Shown piece by piece: positions 16,226 through 46,427 of a stretch of DNA of 64,000 nucleotides. Within the stretch, counting starts at the first letter, position 1, and each line of letters opens with the position of its first letter. Both the position numbers and the translations under genes were made by a program. The notes under the pieces are model-generated. The model worked only from the letters and a program-made list of their open reading frames with translations, had not been told where the DNA came from and searched no databases. Source of the DNA: Cupriavidus nantongensis (lineage in GTDB: Bacteria; Pseudomonadota; Gammaproteobacteria; Burkholderiales; Burkholderiaceae); contig NZ_CP014844.1 of assembly GCF_001598055.1 (NCBI RefSeq), forward strand, positions 62,001 through 126,000, given 5' to 3'.

Positions 16226-16918
16226 ATGCCCGAGCATATCGATCCTGACATGACCGCCGAAGCGATCGCCGACGACATCGTCGCGGCGATCGTTTCGCAC
16301 CGCCTGCCGCCCGGCACCAAGCTGCGCGAGGAGGCGCTGGCCAGCGTCTACCGCGTCAGCCGCACCAAGGTGCGCGCGGCGCTGCTGATGCTGTCCAAGG
16401 ACAAGGTCATCCAGATCGTGCCGGACAAGGGGGCGTTCGTGGCCAAGCCCAGCGCCGAGGAAGCGCGCGAGGTGTTCGCCGTGCGTCGCATCCTCGAAGC
16501 CGCGCTGGCGCGCGAATTCGTCGCCAAGGCCACCGCCGCCGACTACAAGCGCATCGACCGCCACCTGGCGGCCGAACGTAAGTCGCTGGCCGGCAACGAT
16601 GCCCAGGTGCGCACCCGGCTGCTGGGCGACTTCCATATCGTGCTGGCCGAGGTGGTCGGCAACGGCGTGCTGACCGAGATGATGCGCGAGCTGTCGGCGC
16701 GCAGCGCGGTCATCACCATGCTGTACCAGTCGCGCCGCGACGCGGCCTGCTCGTCAGACGAGCATCGCGAGTTCATCGAGGCCGCCCGTGCCGGCGATGT
16801 CGAGCGCGCCGTCACGCTGATGGTGGACCACCTGGGCCACGTCGAGGGCGCGCTGCATTTCGAGGAAACCGCGCCGGTGGCGCGCGGCAAGGACCTCGTC
16901 GCCGCACTGCTGGCGTAG
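16226..16918 (+). CDS. GntR-family regulator (FadR/FCD subfamily)
   Basis: A 230-residue regulator. Residues 10-70 form the winged helix (AIVSHRLPPGTKLREEALAS, VSRTKVRAALLMLSKDKVI). The C-terminal all-helical FCD domain follows, with likely metal-binding residues in GDFHIVLAEVVGN, DEHREFIEAARAGD and DHLGHVEG. Regulators of this group sense organic acids or related metabolites. Being downstream of dctA and opposite two amidohydrolases, it most likely controls the divergent region 14391-14780. The ligand is unknown. Confidence 0.8.
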   Translation: MPEHIDPDMTAEAIADDIVAAIVSHRLPPGTKLREEALASVYRVSRTKVRAALLMLSKDKVIQIVPDKGAFVAKPSAEEAREVFAVRRILEAALAREFVAKATAADYKRIDRHLAAERKSLAGNDAQVRTRLLGDFHIVLAEVVGNGVLTEMMRELSARSAVITMLYQSRRDAACSSDEHREFIEAARAGDVERAVTLMVDHLGHVEGALHFEETAPVARGKDLVAALLA

Positions 16919-16966
16919 GCGCCAGCGCCACCCTTTCCCCCTTCTCTCCGCCCCGGTGCCGGCCGC

Positions 16967-16980
16967 TTGACGTGAGTCAA
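16967..16980 (+). promoter_or_regulatory. FNR/ANR-type dyad
   Basis: TTGAC-GTGA-GTCAA differs from the FNR consensus TTGAT-N4-ATCAA only at the inner position of each half. The identical half-sites occur in front of hemN (42164-42177), a known FNR-regulated gene class. The site lies 49 bases past the GntR stop codon and 48 bases before the candidate small RNA start. Confidence 0.5.
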
Positions 16981-17014
16981 AGCACCCCGCGCCGCCCGCG
17001 CGCAAACTTCATCT

Positions 17015-17118
17015 CGCCATGAAGACGCGGGGGCGCACTTCATGAGCACTTGCCTGCCGGCACCTCATCGTCGGCAGGCTGCCCGCACGCTGCAACGGTG
17101 TGCGGGCTTTCTTTTTTC
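17015..17118 (+). ncRNA. Candidate small RNA with intrinsic terminator
   Basis: Placing the dyad at 16967-16980 at -41.5 predicts a start at 17015, with CAAACT (17003-17008) as a modest -10. The region from there to the T-run can fold as three consecutive stem-loops: ATGAAG/CTTCAT with an inner GCG/CGC (17019-17043), GCCTGCCG/CGGCAGGC (17052-17079) and the terminator stem GCCCGCAC/GTGCGGGC (17081-17107) followed by TTTCTTTTTT. No ribosome site or credible frame is present. An alternative is the trailing end of the GntR transcript, or an attenuated leader for the genes starting at 17506. Confidence 0.4.
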
Positions 17119-17407
17119 TGAGGACGGGGTTCCGCGGCGCCGAATGGCGCGCGCCCCGCGGCCTCTCACCCGTGCCGTCCGGCACCGGTTTTTCCCTTTC
17201 CCGACAGCAGGTTGCGGTGTTTCGGCCAACGTTGCCGCTGCCCTGGCGTAGTCGCGCCAGGCGCGTTTGCGGCGCCCCGTCGCGCCAGCACGCGTGAAAG
17301 CGAATCGCGCCTTCGGGTTAGGATGCCGCAGGCCCCGCCAGAGGCCCGCGCCGTCCCGCCTCGCTGCGGTGGCAGCCGCACACGATAACAACCACAGGGA
17401 GACCGCC
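17119..17407. other. Non-coding stretch before the SDR operon
   Basis: About 290 bases without a supported gene. A hairpin (GTGCCG-TC-CGGCAC) followed by CGGTTTTT lies near 17172-17195 and may be a second terminator. The rest is GC-rich and featureless to me. Confidence 0.4.
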
Positions 17408-17505: not shown

Positions 17506-18309
17506 ATGCCCAGCGCCTTCCGCCCCGACGCCTTTGCCGGCAAGACCGTCTTCGTCGCCGGCGCCTCGTCCGGCATCAACCTTGGCATCGCGCACGGCTT
17601 TGCGCGCGCCGGCGCGCGGCTGGCGCTGATCAGCCGCACCGCCGAGCGCATCCAGGCCGCCGCCGACACCATCACCGCGGCCGGCGGCACCGCCATCGGC
17701 ATGGCCGCCGACGTGCGCGACTACGCCGCGGTCGAGGCCGCCTTTGCGCGTGCGCAGGACGAACTGGGCCCCATCGACGTGGTGATCTCCGGCGCCGCCG
17801 GCAATTTCCTCGCGCCCGTGGTCGGCATGTCGGCCAACGCCTTCAAGACCGTGGTCGATATCGACCTGCTTGGCACCTTCAACGTGTTCCGCGCCAGCTT
17901 CGACCACCTCAGCAAGCCGGGCGCGTCGCTGATCGCGATCACCGCGCCGCAGGCGGTCAACGCGATGATGTTCCAGGCCCATGCCTGCGCCGCCAAGGCC
18001 GGCATCAACATGCTGATCAAGTGCCTGGCGATGGAATGGGGCCCGGCCGGCGTGCGGGTGAACGGCATCTCGCCCGGCCCGATCGCCGACACCGAAGGCA
18101 TGGCGCGGCTGGCGCCGACGCCCGAGATCGAGGCCCGCTACAAGGCGCGCCTGGCGCTGCGCGACTACGGCACCAAGGACGACATCGCCGATGCCGCGAT
18201 GTACCTGAGCAGCGACAACGCCAGCTACGTCACCGGCACCATCCTCGACTGCGACGGCGGCAGCAAGCTGGGCGACGCCTCGGCCGACGCGCTGAAGAAG
18301 CCGCAATAG
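17506..18309 (+). CDS. SDR of the 2,4-dienoyl-CoA reductase type
   Basis: A 267-residue short-chain dehydrogenase. The nucleotide-binding motif is VAGASSGINLG and ISGAAGNFLAP replaces NNAG. The usual YxxxK is missing; the region reads QAHACAAKAGINMLIKCLAM, then EWGPAGVRVNGISPGPIADT. Mitochondrial and peroxisomal 2,4-dienoyl-CoA reductases have the same non-canonical pattern (S/G-x-x-K and EWGP-VRVN-PGPI). I infer reduction of unsaturated acyl-CoA in beta-oxidation. Two crotonase genes follow on the same strand at 55 and 33 bases, forming an acyl-CoA processing operon. The ATG at 17506 has AAGGAC seven bases before it. Confidence 0.75.
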   Translation: MPSAFRPDAFAGKTVFVAGASSGINLGIAHGFARAGARLALISRTAERIQAAADTITAAGGTAIGMAADVRDYAAVEAAFARAQDELGPIDVVISGAAGNFLAPVVGMSANAFKTVVDIDLLGTFNVFRASFDHLSKPGASLIAITAPQAVNAMMFQAHACAAKAGINMLIKCLAMEWGPAGVRVNGISPGPIADTEGMARLAPTPEIEARYKARLALRDYGTKDDIADAAMYLSSDNASYVTGTILDCDGGSKLGDASADALKKPQ

Positions 18310-40630: not shown

Positions 40631-42103
40631 TTACACCACGCGCGAGTAGCGCGGCACGATGCGGATCGGCTGGGCGCCGTCGTTGGCGGCGCGCGCGCCG
40701 TTGTCGACTGGCCGGGCGGCGTCGTCGCGCAGGTAGCGGTCGAACACCATCGCCACGCGCCGCACCAGCAGCCGGCCCAGCGGCGTCACGGTGATGCGGC
40801 CGGGCTCGCGGCGTACCAGCCCGTCCGCGGCCAGGCGCTCGAGCTCGGCCAGCTCCGCGGCAAAGGTCCGGTTGAAATCGATGCCATGCCGCGCCTCGAT
40901 CGCCGGCAGTTCGAGCACGCCATTGCACATCAGGTCGCCGATGATTTCGCGCCGCAGGTGGTCGTCGGCCGTCATCGCCACGCCGCGCGCCAGCGGCAGG
41001 CGGCCCTGGTCGAGCGCGCCGTAGTAGTCGTCGAGCGTGCGTGCGTTCTGCACGTAGCGACCCGCGATCGCGCCGATCGCCGAGATGCCGAGGCCGACCT
41101 GGTCATAGCCGGCGTGCGTCGAATAGCCCTGGAAGTTGCGCTGCAGCCGGCCCTCGCGCTGGGCCACGGCAAGGTCGTCGTCGGGCAGCGCGAAGTGGTC
41201 CATGCCGATATAGACATAGCCCTCGGCGGTCAGCCGCTCGATGGTCGAGACCAGGATGTCGAGCTTCTCGCCGGCCGGCGGCAACGCGTTTTCGTCGATG
41301 CGGCGCTGCGGCTTGAATACGTGCGGCAGGTGGGCGTAGCTGTAGACCGAAAGCCGGTCGGGCCGCAGCGCCAGCACCTGGTCGATGGTGCGGCCGAAGC
41401 GCGCCGCGGTCTGGTGCGGCAGCCCGTAGATCAGGTCCAGGCTGACCGAGCGGAAGCCGAGCGCGCGCGCGGCATCGACCACGGCGCGGGTCTCCGCGAA
41501 CGGCTGGATGCGATGGATGGCCTGCTGCACCTCGGGGTCGAAATCCTGCACGCCCAGGCTGACGCGGTTGAAGCCCAGCTCGGCCAGCAGCGCCATGCGG
41601 TGCTGGTCGACGCGGCGCGGATCGATCTCGATCGAGTGCTCGCCGTCGGCCGCCAGCAGGAAGTGCGTGTTCAGCAGCGCCATCACGCGACGCATTTCCT
41701 CCGGGTTCAGGAAGGTCGGCGTGCCGCCGCCCCAGTGCGACTGGATCACCTGCCGGCGCTCGCCGAGCCGCCCCGCCACCAGCGCCATCTCGCGGCCCAG
41801 GTAGCTGACGTAGCGCGCGCTGCGGCCGTGGTCGCGGGTGATGATCTTGTTGCAGCCGCAGTAGTAGCAGATGTTCTCGCAGAACGGGATATGCAGGTAC
41901 AGCGACAGCGGTGCCGGCGCGTTGGCGCGGCAGGCGTCCAGCGCGTCGTGGTACAGCGACGGGTCGGGACGGTTGTGGAAGCGGTCGGCGGTCGGGTACG
42001 AGGTATAGCGCGGGCCGTTGCCGTCGATGCGCCCGGCAAGCGCGCGGAAGTCGGAGAGTGCGCGACGGTCGAGCGCGGGGGAAGTCATGGCAGGCGGGTT
42101 CAT
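40631..42103 (-). CDS. hemN: HemN, oxygen-independent coproporphyrinogen III dehydrogenase
   Basis: A 490-residue radical SAM enzyme. [10 protein letters not shown] (Cys75, 79, 82 plus 84) binds the 4Fe-4S cluster; [24 protein letters not shown] and [20 protein letters not shown] are HemN-specific. [33 protein letters not shown] further separates it from HemW. It performs heme synthesis without oxygen. The FNR-type box at 42164-42177 is centred 41.5 bases upstream of a predicted start at 42129, with TACGAT at the correct -10 position, so anaerobic induction is well supported. The tail after residue 455 is variable. Confidence 0.93.
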
Positions 42104-42163: not shown

Positions 42164-42177
42164 TTGACCGCCGTCAA
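42164..42177 (-). promoter_or_regulatory. FNR/ANR-type box of hemN
   Basis: TTGAC-CGCC-GTCAA, with a TACGAT -10 element at 42136-42141 on the minus strand exactly where a class II FNR promoter needs it. The same box is 124 bases upstream of the divergent binding-protein gene. Confidence 0.65.
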
Positions 42178-46124: not shown

Positions 46125-46130
46125 GCGCGC

Positions 46131-46356
46131 ATCCGACCGGGAGAGCGCGCATCGCCTGCGCCGCCGAAGGGGTATCACCCGAAAACTCTCAGGCACCACG
46201 GACCGGTCGGATCGGCATGCAACATGCACACGATGCATGCCGCACTCTGGAGAGCGGCACCCGCCATTCGTGGCGAGCGTGCCCACCGAAGGGGCGCGCG
46301 AGGATGGGATCCACCGGATCCGCCTCGTAATCTCTCAGGTATCGAGGACAGAGGGG
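46131..46356 (+). promoter_or_regulatory. Tandem glycine riboswitch
   Basis: Two glycine aptamers upstream of gcvT. Aptamer I (46131-46212) is closed by a perfect 10-bp P1 (ATCCGACCGG/CCGGTCGGAT) and carries GGGAGAGCG, CCGAAGGGG and CTCTCAGGCA. Aptamer II (about 46243-46356) repeats CTGGAGAGCG, CCGAAGGGGC and CTCTCAGGTA. The linker has a small GCATGC hairpin. Glycine binding should raise gcvTHP expression. Confidence 0.93.
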
Positions 46357-46427
46357 TCATCCGCCGCAGCGGATCGCTTGCCATATTGGCATAGCGATGG
46401 TTGCGGCGGATGGCCCTTTTTTGTTTT
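46355..46427 (+). terminator. Riboswitch-controlled intrinsic terminator
   Basis: GGTCATCCGCCGCA (46355-46368) pairs with TGCGGCGGATGGCC (46402-46415), enclosing a second stem (ATCGCT/AGCGAT with TGCCA/TGGCA), followed by CTTTTTTGTTTT. Its 5' arm begins at the end of aptamer II, as expected of an expression platform in which the ligand-bound aptamer disfavours termination. Confidence 0.8.

Follow-up and report, generated by a model that had tools for sequence, protein, structure and literature searches.

Introduction

In E. coli and its relatives, the small RNA FnrS is a short free-standing transcript driven by an FNR-type site, and it likely serves adaptation to low oxygen by repressing functions that are dispensable without oxygen (excerpts of PMC8139620). 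Among beta-proteobacteria, AniS of the meningococcus and FnrS of the gonococcus are small RNAs of oxygen limitation whose targets have been elusive, and the NmsRA and NmsRB RNAs of Neisseria, which lie in tandem and belong to the stringent response, have similar structures and more than one copy per genome (excerpts of PMC5362039). PaiI of Pseudomonas and PcrZ of Rhodobacter are low-oxygen-induced small RNAs linked to ANR and FnrL, their control by the FNR-type regulator being thought to be indirect (excerpts of PMC8139620). In the Burkholderiales, RF02278, S17 and bdhR1 are conserved small RNAs made of stem-loops and a terminator; S17 adjoins coq7, and its short form arises through RNase E processing (excerpts of PMC11722255). 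For Cupriavidus itself, a study of C. metallidurans lists 35 probable non-coding (orphan) transcripts (excerpts of PMC7563307).

Here we describe a locus of Cupriavidus, located in a window of 64 kb (the whole stretch of DNA that was analysed), which very probably is a genuine gene for a small regulatory RNA under a low-oxygen (FNR-type) switch. Like E. coli FnrS, it has an FNR-type site ahead of a free-standing short RNA, and a role of the same repressing kind is likely. Unlike FnrS, it has three sibling copies in this genome, appears to be confined to Cupriavidus and has no FnrS match in Rfam. It shares its elusive targets with AniS and gonococcal FnrS, a likeness of description and not of aligned sequences. 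Similar structures in more than one copy recall the NmsRs, but the Cupriavidus copies are dispersed, each with an FNR-type promoter of its own. Conservation, stem-loops and a terminator are common to this RNA and the RF02278/S17/bdhR1 group, whereas the coq7 neighbourhood and RNase E processing are particular to S17. PaiI and PcrZ were compared by their descriptions and by the Rfam scan. We found no description of the RNA in the accessible parts of the literature on small RNAs of the group and on FNR-linked small RNAs (including PMC5688073 and PMC4035088); among the papers listed there was also no oxygen-linked small RNA for Cupriavidus and, in the parts accessible, no set of sibling small RNAs each with an FNR-type promoter. 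The RNA may be among the unnamed transcripts of the C. metallidurans study (PMC7563307).

Results

Architecture of the locus

Copy 1 of the RNA gene occupies 17015-17117 on the plus strand, with a predicted 5' end and a 3' end inside the T run. It lies downstream of gntR, which encodes a GntR/FCD-family regulator (16226-16918, plus strand; PF00392, PF07729), and upstream of an SDR oxidoreductase gene (17506-18309, plus strand; PF13561), both outside the RNA gene. The predicted fold of 17015-17117 consists of three hairpins (17016-17047, 17052-17079 and 17081-17107) with an energy of -59.9 kcal/mol and a z score of -6.40, and none of 200 shuffled sequences folded equally well. Hairpin 3 and the T tail form an intrinsic terminator (17081-17117, plus strand), which the terminator scan reports as 17081-17107 plus TTTCTTTTTT. 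Fold and scan thus agree on the three stem-loops and terminator that a preliminary description of this DNA had read here, and ATGAAG (17019-17024) and CTTCAT (17038-17043), which it had paired with each other, stand where it had placed them.

Conservation in the RNA centres on the top of hairpin 1 and not on the middle hairpin, a point that goes beyond the preliminary description. This top, GCGGGGGCGC (17027-17036, plus strand), is a GGGG loop closed by three base pairs. Its columns are invariant or nearly so in alignment A1 (see below), in which locus L016 is one G short, and the triplets CGG, GGG and CGC are identical in 96, 95 and 94 of 96 homologous sequences, respectively. We propose that it is the contact site for RNA partners. 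Runs of G are depleted in the window, about five-fold for GGGG (338 versus 1829 by base composition) and about ten-fold for GGGGG (65 versus 632), and the G5 loop of the Cupriavidus RNA is therefore unusual for its genome.

Rfam 15 was searched with the whole window at the gathering score and with 16930-17150 at E values up to 10. For the RNA, nothing reached the gathering score and 12 lines appeared at E <= 10, all far under their gathering scores. No line in either scan was FnrS, in keeping with the earlier remark that the sequence itself is not FnrS, and RF02278, a Betaproteobacteria toxic small RNA, reached 15.9 bits where its gathering score is 50, which places the RNA outside that family. 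Elsewhere in the window lie two tandem glycine riboswitch aptamers (46128-46361, plus strand; RF00504, 59.7 and 43.9 bits).

Promoter geometry and candidate regulators

Activator sites of class II promoters are centred at -41.5. The FNR-type dyad TTGACGTGAGTCAA (16967-16980, plus strand) is centred at 16973.5, exactly 41.5 nt before 17015, and the class II distance claimed in the preliminary description is thereby borne out. A weak -10 hexamer, CAAACT, can be read at 17003-17008 (plus strand), 22 nt 3' of the dyad; the promoter scan returned no sigma-70 promoter at copy 1, and the weak hexamer would be in line with a promoter that depends on an activator. The 64-kb window holds two copies of the strict pattern TTGAC-N4-GTCAA, where shuffles predict 0.01, and five of the looser TTGAY-N4-RTCAA with one mismatch allowed, where 1.6 are expected. 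The second strict dyad (42164-42177) lies about 60 bp ahead of the start of hemN (40631-42103, minus strand; 567.7 bits with TIGR00538, whose cut-off is 325), so that hemN is, as had been noticed before, the only other place in the window with the same dyad. hemN is a classical FNR target.

The same arrangement was found in relatives. TTGA-N6-TCAA stands upstream in all 50 loci of the set L001-L050, and its centre is 41 nt from the RNA start in 35 of them and 42 nt in 15, the DNA between dyad and RNA start being variable. In 27 matches within the genus (26 among these 50 loci, and L178) the BLAST alignment stopped short of the dyad, and all 27 have it; since the dyad is kept where the match began after it, the search was not selecting for the dyad. 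For a wider tally, 101 distinct sequences were collected by a script, which missed at least L179, L186 and L189, all with inexact dyads, and were sorted into copy types by short motifs. The exact dyad is present in 51 of 51 copy-1, 37 of 38 copy-2 and 3 of 3 plasmid-type sequences. Copy 3 has TTAA-N6-TCAA in 9 of 9, one base off and with a weaker half-site.

The -10 hexamers of the three copies in this genome (CAAACT, TAAGAT and TAGAAT for copies 1, 2 and 3) all lie 22 nt from the dyad. At this distance the copy-2 hexamer keeps T1, A2 and T6 in 38 of 38 sequences and A5 in 37 of 38, and copy 3 reads TAGAAT in 9 of 9. Among copy-1 relatives the gap from dyad to loop is 46 nt in 34, 47 nt in 15 and 45 nt in 2 sequences, from which it follows that the -10 place slips by one base in part of them. 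The geometry, with a dyad near -41.5 and a -10 element at the matching distance, is that of a class II FNR-type promoter.

The genome contains nine HTH_Crp_2 domains above the cut-off, and at least two of the proteins combine the ETVSR helix with N-terminal cysteines. One of them (L284) has the motif CSTCAMGQLC and another Cys after it, besides the ETVSR helix, and we take it from these motifs to be the canonical oxygen-sensing FeS FNR of this genome; L283 is a similar paralogue that also carries an ETVSR helix and N-terminal cysteines. Judged from the promoter geometry and the presence of a canonical FNR, it is highly likely that the RNA is under the control of a regulator of the Crp/FNR class.

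Conserved fold and covariation

A covariation set was built from 50 chosen sequences of all copies, in an alignment fitted to the covariance model, and for this reason its pair counts lean towards the model. Overall, 97.0% of cells pair in this set, falling to 32-51% when the partner strand is slid by 1-3 columns. Both sides have changed in 105 cells, where shuffles give 33.6, and the covariation score of 0.302 compares with 0.130 for shuffles; none of 500 shuffles came as high in either case. Two other measures were weaker: 9 pairs have changes on both sides against 7.0 in shuffles (8 of 500 as high), and the number of further pair types, 24 against 23.0, is barely above shuffles (199 of 500 as high). 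Hairpin 1 (99.2% of cells paired) has three pairs with changes on both sides. Its changes are compensatory, from A-U to G-C at two pairs and between A-U, G-U and G-C at a third. Hairpin 3 (95.0% of cells paired) has such changes in 6 of its 11 pairs.

Alignment A1, a MAFFT alignment of 41 distinct sequences of L001-L050 that includes two sequences from the copy-2 locus (L044 and L050), had its structure predicted from itself. It gave 27 cells with changes on both sides against 6.6 and 5 such pairs against 1.9 (0 of 500 shuffles for both), while its further pair types were matched or beaten by 259 of 500 shuffles. The preliminary description had suggested looking for covariation of the stems in relatives, and the stems do covary.

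Eight diverged relatives were picked from the 41 sequences of A1, seven of the copy-1 type and L044 from the copy-2 locus; all eight fold as three hairpins (z from -3.5 to -7.4), with hairpin 2 (17052-17079, plus strand) kept as a hairpin of divergent sequence. Hairpins 2 and 3 vary in length and sequence among relatives, and hairpin 2 differs between clades past reliable alignment. In this genome, copy 3 forms all three hairpins (z -5.58). Copy 2, in its best fold (z -7.07), keeps hairpin 1 and pairs the tail with the hairpin-2 region, so that hairpin 2 is not separate. Free-standing, with a conserved structure and a terminator with a U tail, the RNA has the make-up of a trans-encoded small RNA.

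Sibling copies and conservation in Cupriavidus

In a BLAST-type search, 16960-17120 had matches in 51 of 60 Cupriavidus genomes, and G055 gave an additional second match of 34 nt. The covariance model, which matches copy 1 itself at 17015-17119 with 103 bits (copy 1 being part of the model), found the family in 59 genomes of the genus, the lowest of their best scores being 62.2 bits. It recovered eight of the nine genomes missed by BLAST; the ninth, G047 (54% complete), is not among the matches listed. Dyad and hairpins are thus retained in close relatives, the Cupriavidus genomes, which the preliminary description had named as a check.

At E 0.001 the model finds three sibling copies at three separate loci of this genome. 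That the RNA gene is one of three siblings was not part of the preliminary description. Copy 2 (C1:3186271-3186370, minus strand) is followed by a gene for a solute-binding protein and has one for a Clp-type ATPase on its opposite flank, and copy 3 (C2:1186130-1186225, minus strand) has an upstream reading frame with an HU-like DNA-binding domain. Hairpin 1, with its nearly fixed top on a covarying stem, is common to all three. Copies hold their loci across clades: copy 1 follows dctA and gntR in 47 of 50 loci (gntR identity 87-100%), and within the flanking DNA covered the SDR gene lies beyond it in 32 of 50. The three exceptions are L044 and L050, which belong to the copy-2 locus (90% identity in the solute-binding protein gene), and L045, which has a different context. 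Since the sister copies have the same promoter layout and other neighbours, the unit is not just the 3' end of the gntR mRNA, an outcome that the preliminary description had considered damaging to its reading.

The number of copies varies. Three genomes of the gilardii/cauae clade (G009, G011 and G012) have one strong model match each; the C. gilardii/cauae loci L044, L050 and L178 are at the copy-2 locus, and copies 1 and 3 are apparently absent there. G056 has five matches, two of them (L091 and L092, with exact dyads) on an additional replicon, G056:C3, and L188 (G037:C3), also with an exact dyad, lies on pSym, a plasmid of C. necator UYPR2.512. In copy 2 (L081:3272-3371, minus strand), hairpin 1 and also the linker and 5' arm CTTGTCTACCCGTTTCC are nearly unchanged in most loci seen; the latter segment is a second candidate pairing site, present in copy 2 and not in copies 1 and 3.

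Range outside Cupriavidus

The preliminary description had proposed a comparison across genera. Its expectation held within Cupriavidus and failed beyond it, since the genomes sampled from the family and from the order yielded no relative outside this genus. When 399 genomes of the order were searched with a model built on all three copies, 3 matched at E 1e-6, each of them a Cupriavidus (1 of 158 genera). The hairpin pattern, run against 84,980 species genomes, hit 71 stretches, 66 of them labelled Cupriavidus; the remaining labels are 'Ralstonia sp. 25mfcol4.1' (2), 'Burkholderiaceae bacterium 16' (2) and one MAG stretch. One contig each of the first two labels probably corresponds to the same-genus genomes G053 and G040, and the MAG stretch (L125) was rejected as a relative, being chance-like and without a dyad.

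Among 398 genomes of the family, the dyad-plus-loop pattern matched 58 of the same genus and 7 others, which differ in spacing; the reversed pattern matches 3 genomes. One of these seven that was examined (L172, G103:C21:294967-295028) lacks a hairpin 1 of the Cupriavidus type and was set aside. This locus, in another genus of the family, has a dyad TTGATCTACATCAA ahead of TAGACT and a GCGCGGGGGCGC segment, and is either a chance site or an independent analogue. At E 0.001 the model matched 134 genomes of the family, 75 of them outside the genus with a best score of 37.8 bits, well under the 62.2 bits that mark the lower end inside the genus. Eight of these 75 (L083-L090) were rejected, having neither a dyad in the 80 nt upstream nor GCGGGGGCGC; three of the eight resemble tRNA ends by eye. 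Because the searches of order, family and species genomes gave only Cupriavidus convincingly, the RNA family looks genus-specific within the sensitivity of the filters used.

Target searches

Targets were searched as exact complements of two segments, the loop and the copy-2 linker. The perfect loop complement GCGCCCCCGC has 79 matches in its own genome against 82 for the reversed control and is not enriched; three of the 79 are the antisense strands of the siblings themselves. In a crude scripted sort of 77 sites (L194-L268), 27 fell in coding frames, 19 antisense, 24 where no frame was called, 6 close to a possible start codon, and one opposite a copy of the small RNA, on its antisense strand. 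The best-looking case at a start site is L223, by eye a solute-binding protein gene. The 12-mer AGCGCCCCCGCA occurs three times, twice inside sibling genes. The complement of the copy-2 linker, GTAGACAAG, matches 14 times, copy 2 itself included, which is fewer than the 42 of the reversed control. Two of them lie just upstream of start codons, at L277 (SDR-like by eye) and L282 (85 aa); among the matches listed in a search of the genus, the L282 site was seen again in G022, and neither site turned up widely.

Discussion

The conservation, the covarying fold and the siblings together make it almost certain that this is a real conserved RNA gene. That it is an independent small RNA gene of about 103 nt, with a Hfq-dependent look and a class II promoter of the FNR kind, as one of three siblings, we hold to be quite probable, and the earlier reading of copy 1 as an FNR-controlled small RNA is supported. 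We infer transcription and, from the promoter geometry and the canonical FNR of the genome, FNR dependence; dependence on Hfq would be suggested by the U-rich tail, the one Hfq-related feature visible in the sequence. By analogy with known small RNAs, action by pairing in trans appears likely, with the RNA, as we infer, produced under oxygen shortage.

According to the mechanism that we propose, when oxygen falls, a protein of the Crp/FNR family (most likely the canonical FeS FNR of the genome) would bind the dyad and recruit RNA polymerase at the weak -10 element, and the transcript would end at hairpin 3 with its U-rich tail. The siblings would present the same hairpin 1, whose top would open and base-pair with RNA partners, and this pairing would adjust metabolism to low oxygen in the way that E. 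coli FnrS does.

The same RNAs could be switched by another Crp/FNR-family regulator that reads TTGAY-N4-RTCAA, such as a Dnr/NnrR-type NO sensor or a second FeS-type FNR paralogue, the signal then being nitrogen oxides or redox. The dyads of Dnr/NnrR-type and FNR-type regulators overlap, nine HTH_Crp_2 domains are available in the genome, L283 shares the ETVSR helix and N-terminal cysteines of L284, and copy 3 has a different half-site throughout; however, the same dyad precedes hemN and the class II spacing suits FNR equally well, and we regard a different regulator as unlikely. By sequence alone, more than one Crp/FNR protein would suit this role. The partner may also differ from the one we propose: the RNAs could be an oxygen-controlled sponge or protein decoy, in which the constant G-rich loop would capture a single shared partner, either a C/U-rich small RNA or a protein that binds RNA, and would not pair with many mRNAs. 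A loop that hardly changes from copy to copy although the remainder diverges, a loop complement that is not enriched in the genome, and several copies per genome, with extra ones in some giving a higher dosage, all speak for this possibility. A decoy of the CsrA type was set aside, as the CsrA binding motif contains GGA and the loop has none, which counts against the decoy form; on the whole we consider a sponge or decoy rather improbable. In its most specific form, which we offer as a speculation with a small chance of being right, the FNR-class-controlled siblings (three here, five in one genome) would carry one constant GCG-GGGG-CGC kissing loop for a single common partner and would be an oxygen-gated sponge, not ordinary multi-target antisense small RNAs. 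Their promoters would be graded from copy 1, strongly activator-dependent with a weak -10 and a full dyad, to copy 3, weakly dependent with a near-consensus -10 and a degenerate dyad, and the RNA dose would rise stepwise as oxygen falls.

Two further explanations were weighed. A functionless end or terminator of the gntR mRNA, or a repeated extragenic palindrome, would account for a position directly 3' of gntR on the same strand and for the several copies, yet copies 2 and 3 repeat the promoter layout next to different genes, the copies stay at constant loci across clades, and the genome has only three model matches at E 0.001; we give this explanation hardly any credence. The other is a leaderless micro-ORF of 8 codons from the ATG at 17019 (MKTRGRTS in copy 1, MEMRGRSS in copy 2), which would make the RNA a messenger for a peptide or a dual-function RNA. 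It was weighed in 96 homologous sequences selected by the exact dyad, a set without copy 3. Eight codons and a stop are retained in 80 of the 96 but lost in 16, and an SD-like 4-mer 4-16 nt upstream occurs in none, so for this frame the earlier statement that no protein frame with a ribosome site is present stands. Codons 4-6 show almost no variation, silent positions included (identical in 96, 95 and 94 of 96), while the amino acid of codon 3 varies (ATG, ACG, TTG, CTG, GTG); a one-base deletion in L016 shifts the frame, copy 3 reads another frame, and the start codon is buried in a stable stem. Longer frames, for example 17042-17251 (69 aa), overlap the region mechanically. On this evidence a coding role of the 8-codon frame appears unlikely, and we consider a micro-ORF as the function of the locus very improbable.

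Our preferred reading is a small regulatory RNA with an FNR-type switch. Hydrogen-based growth, bioplastic production, metal resistance and denitrification, for which Cupriavidus serves as a model, are all linked to oxygen supply. If our reading is true, these RNAs would add a post-transcriptional layer to oxygen control in Cupriavidus, and their importance would follow from a nearly fixed loop that is kept in the genus with an FNR-type switch at each locus.
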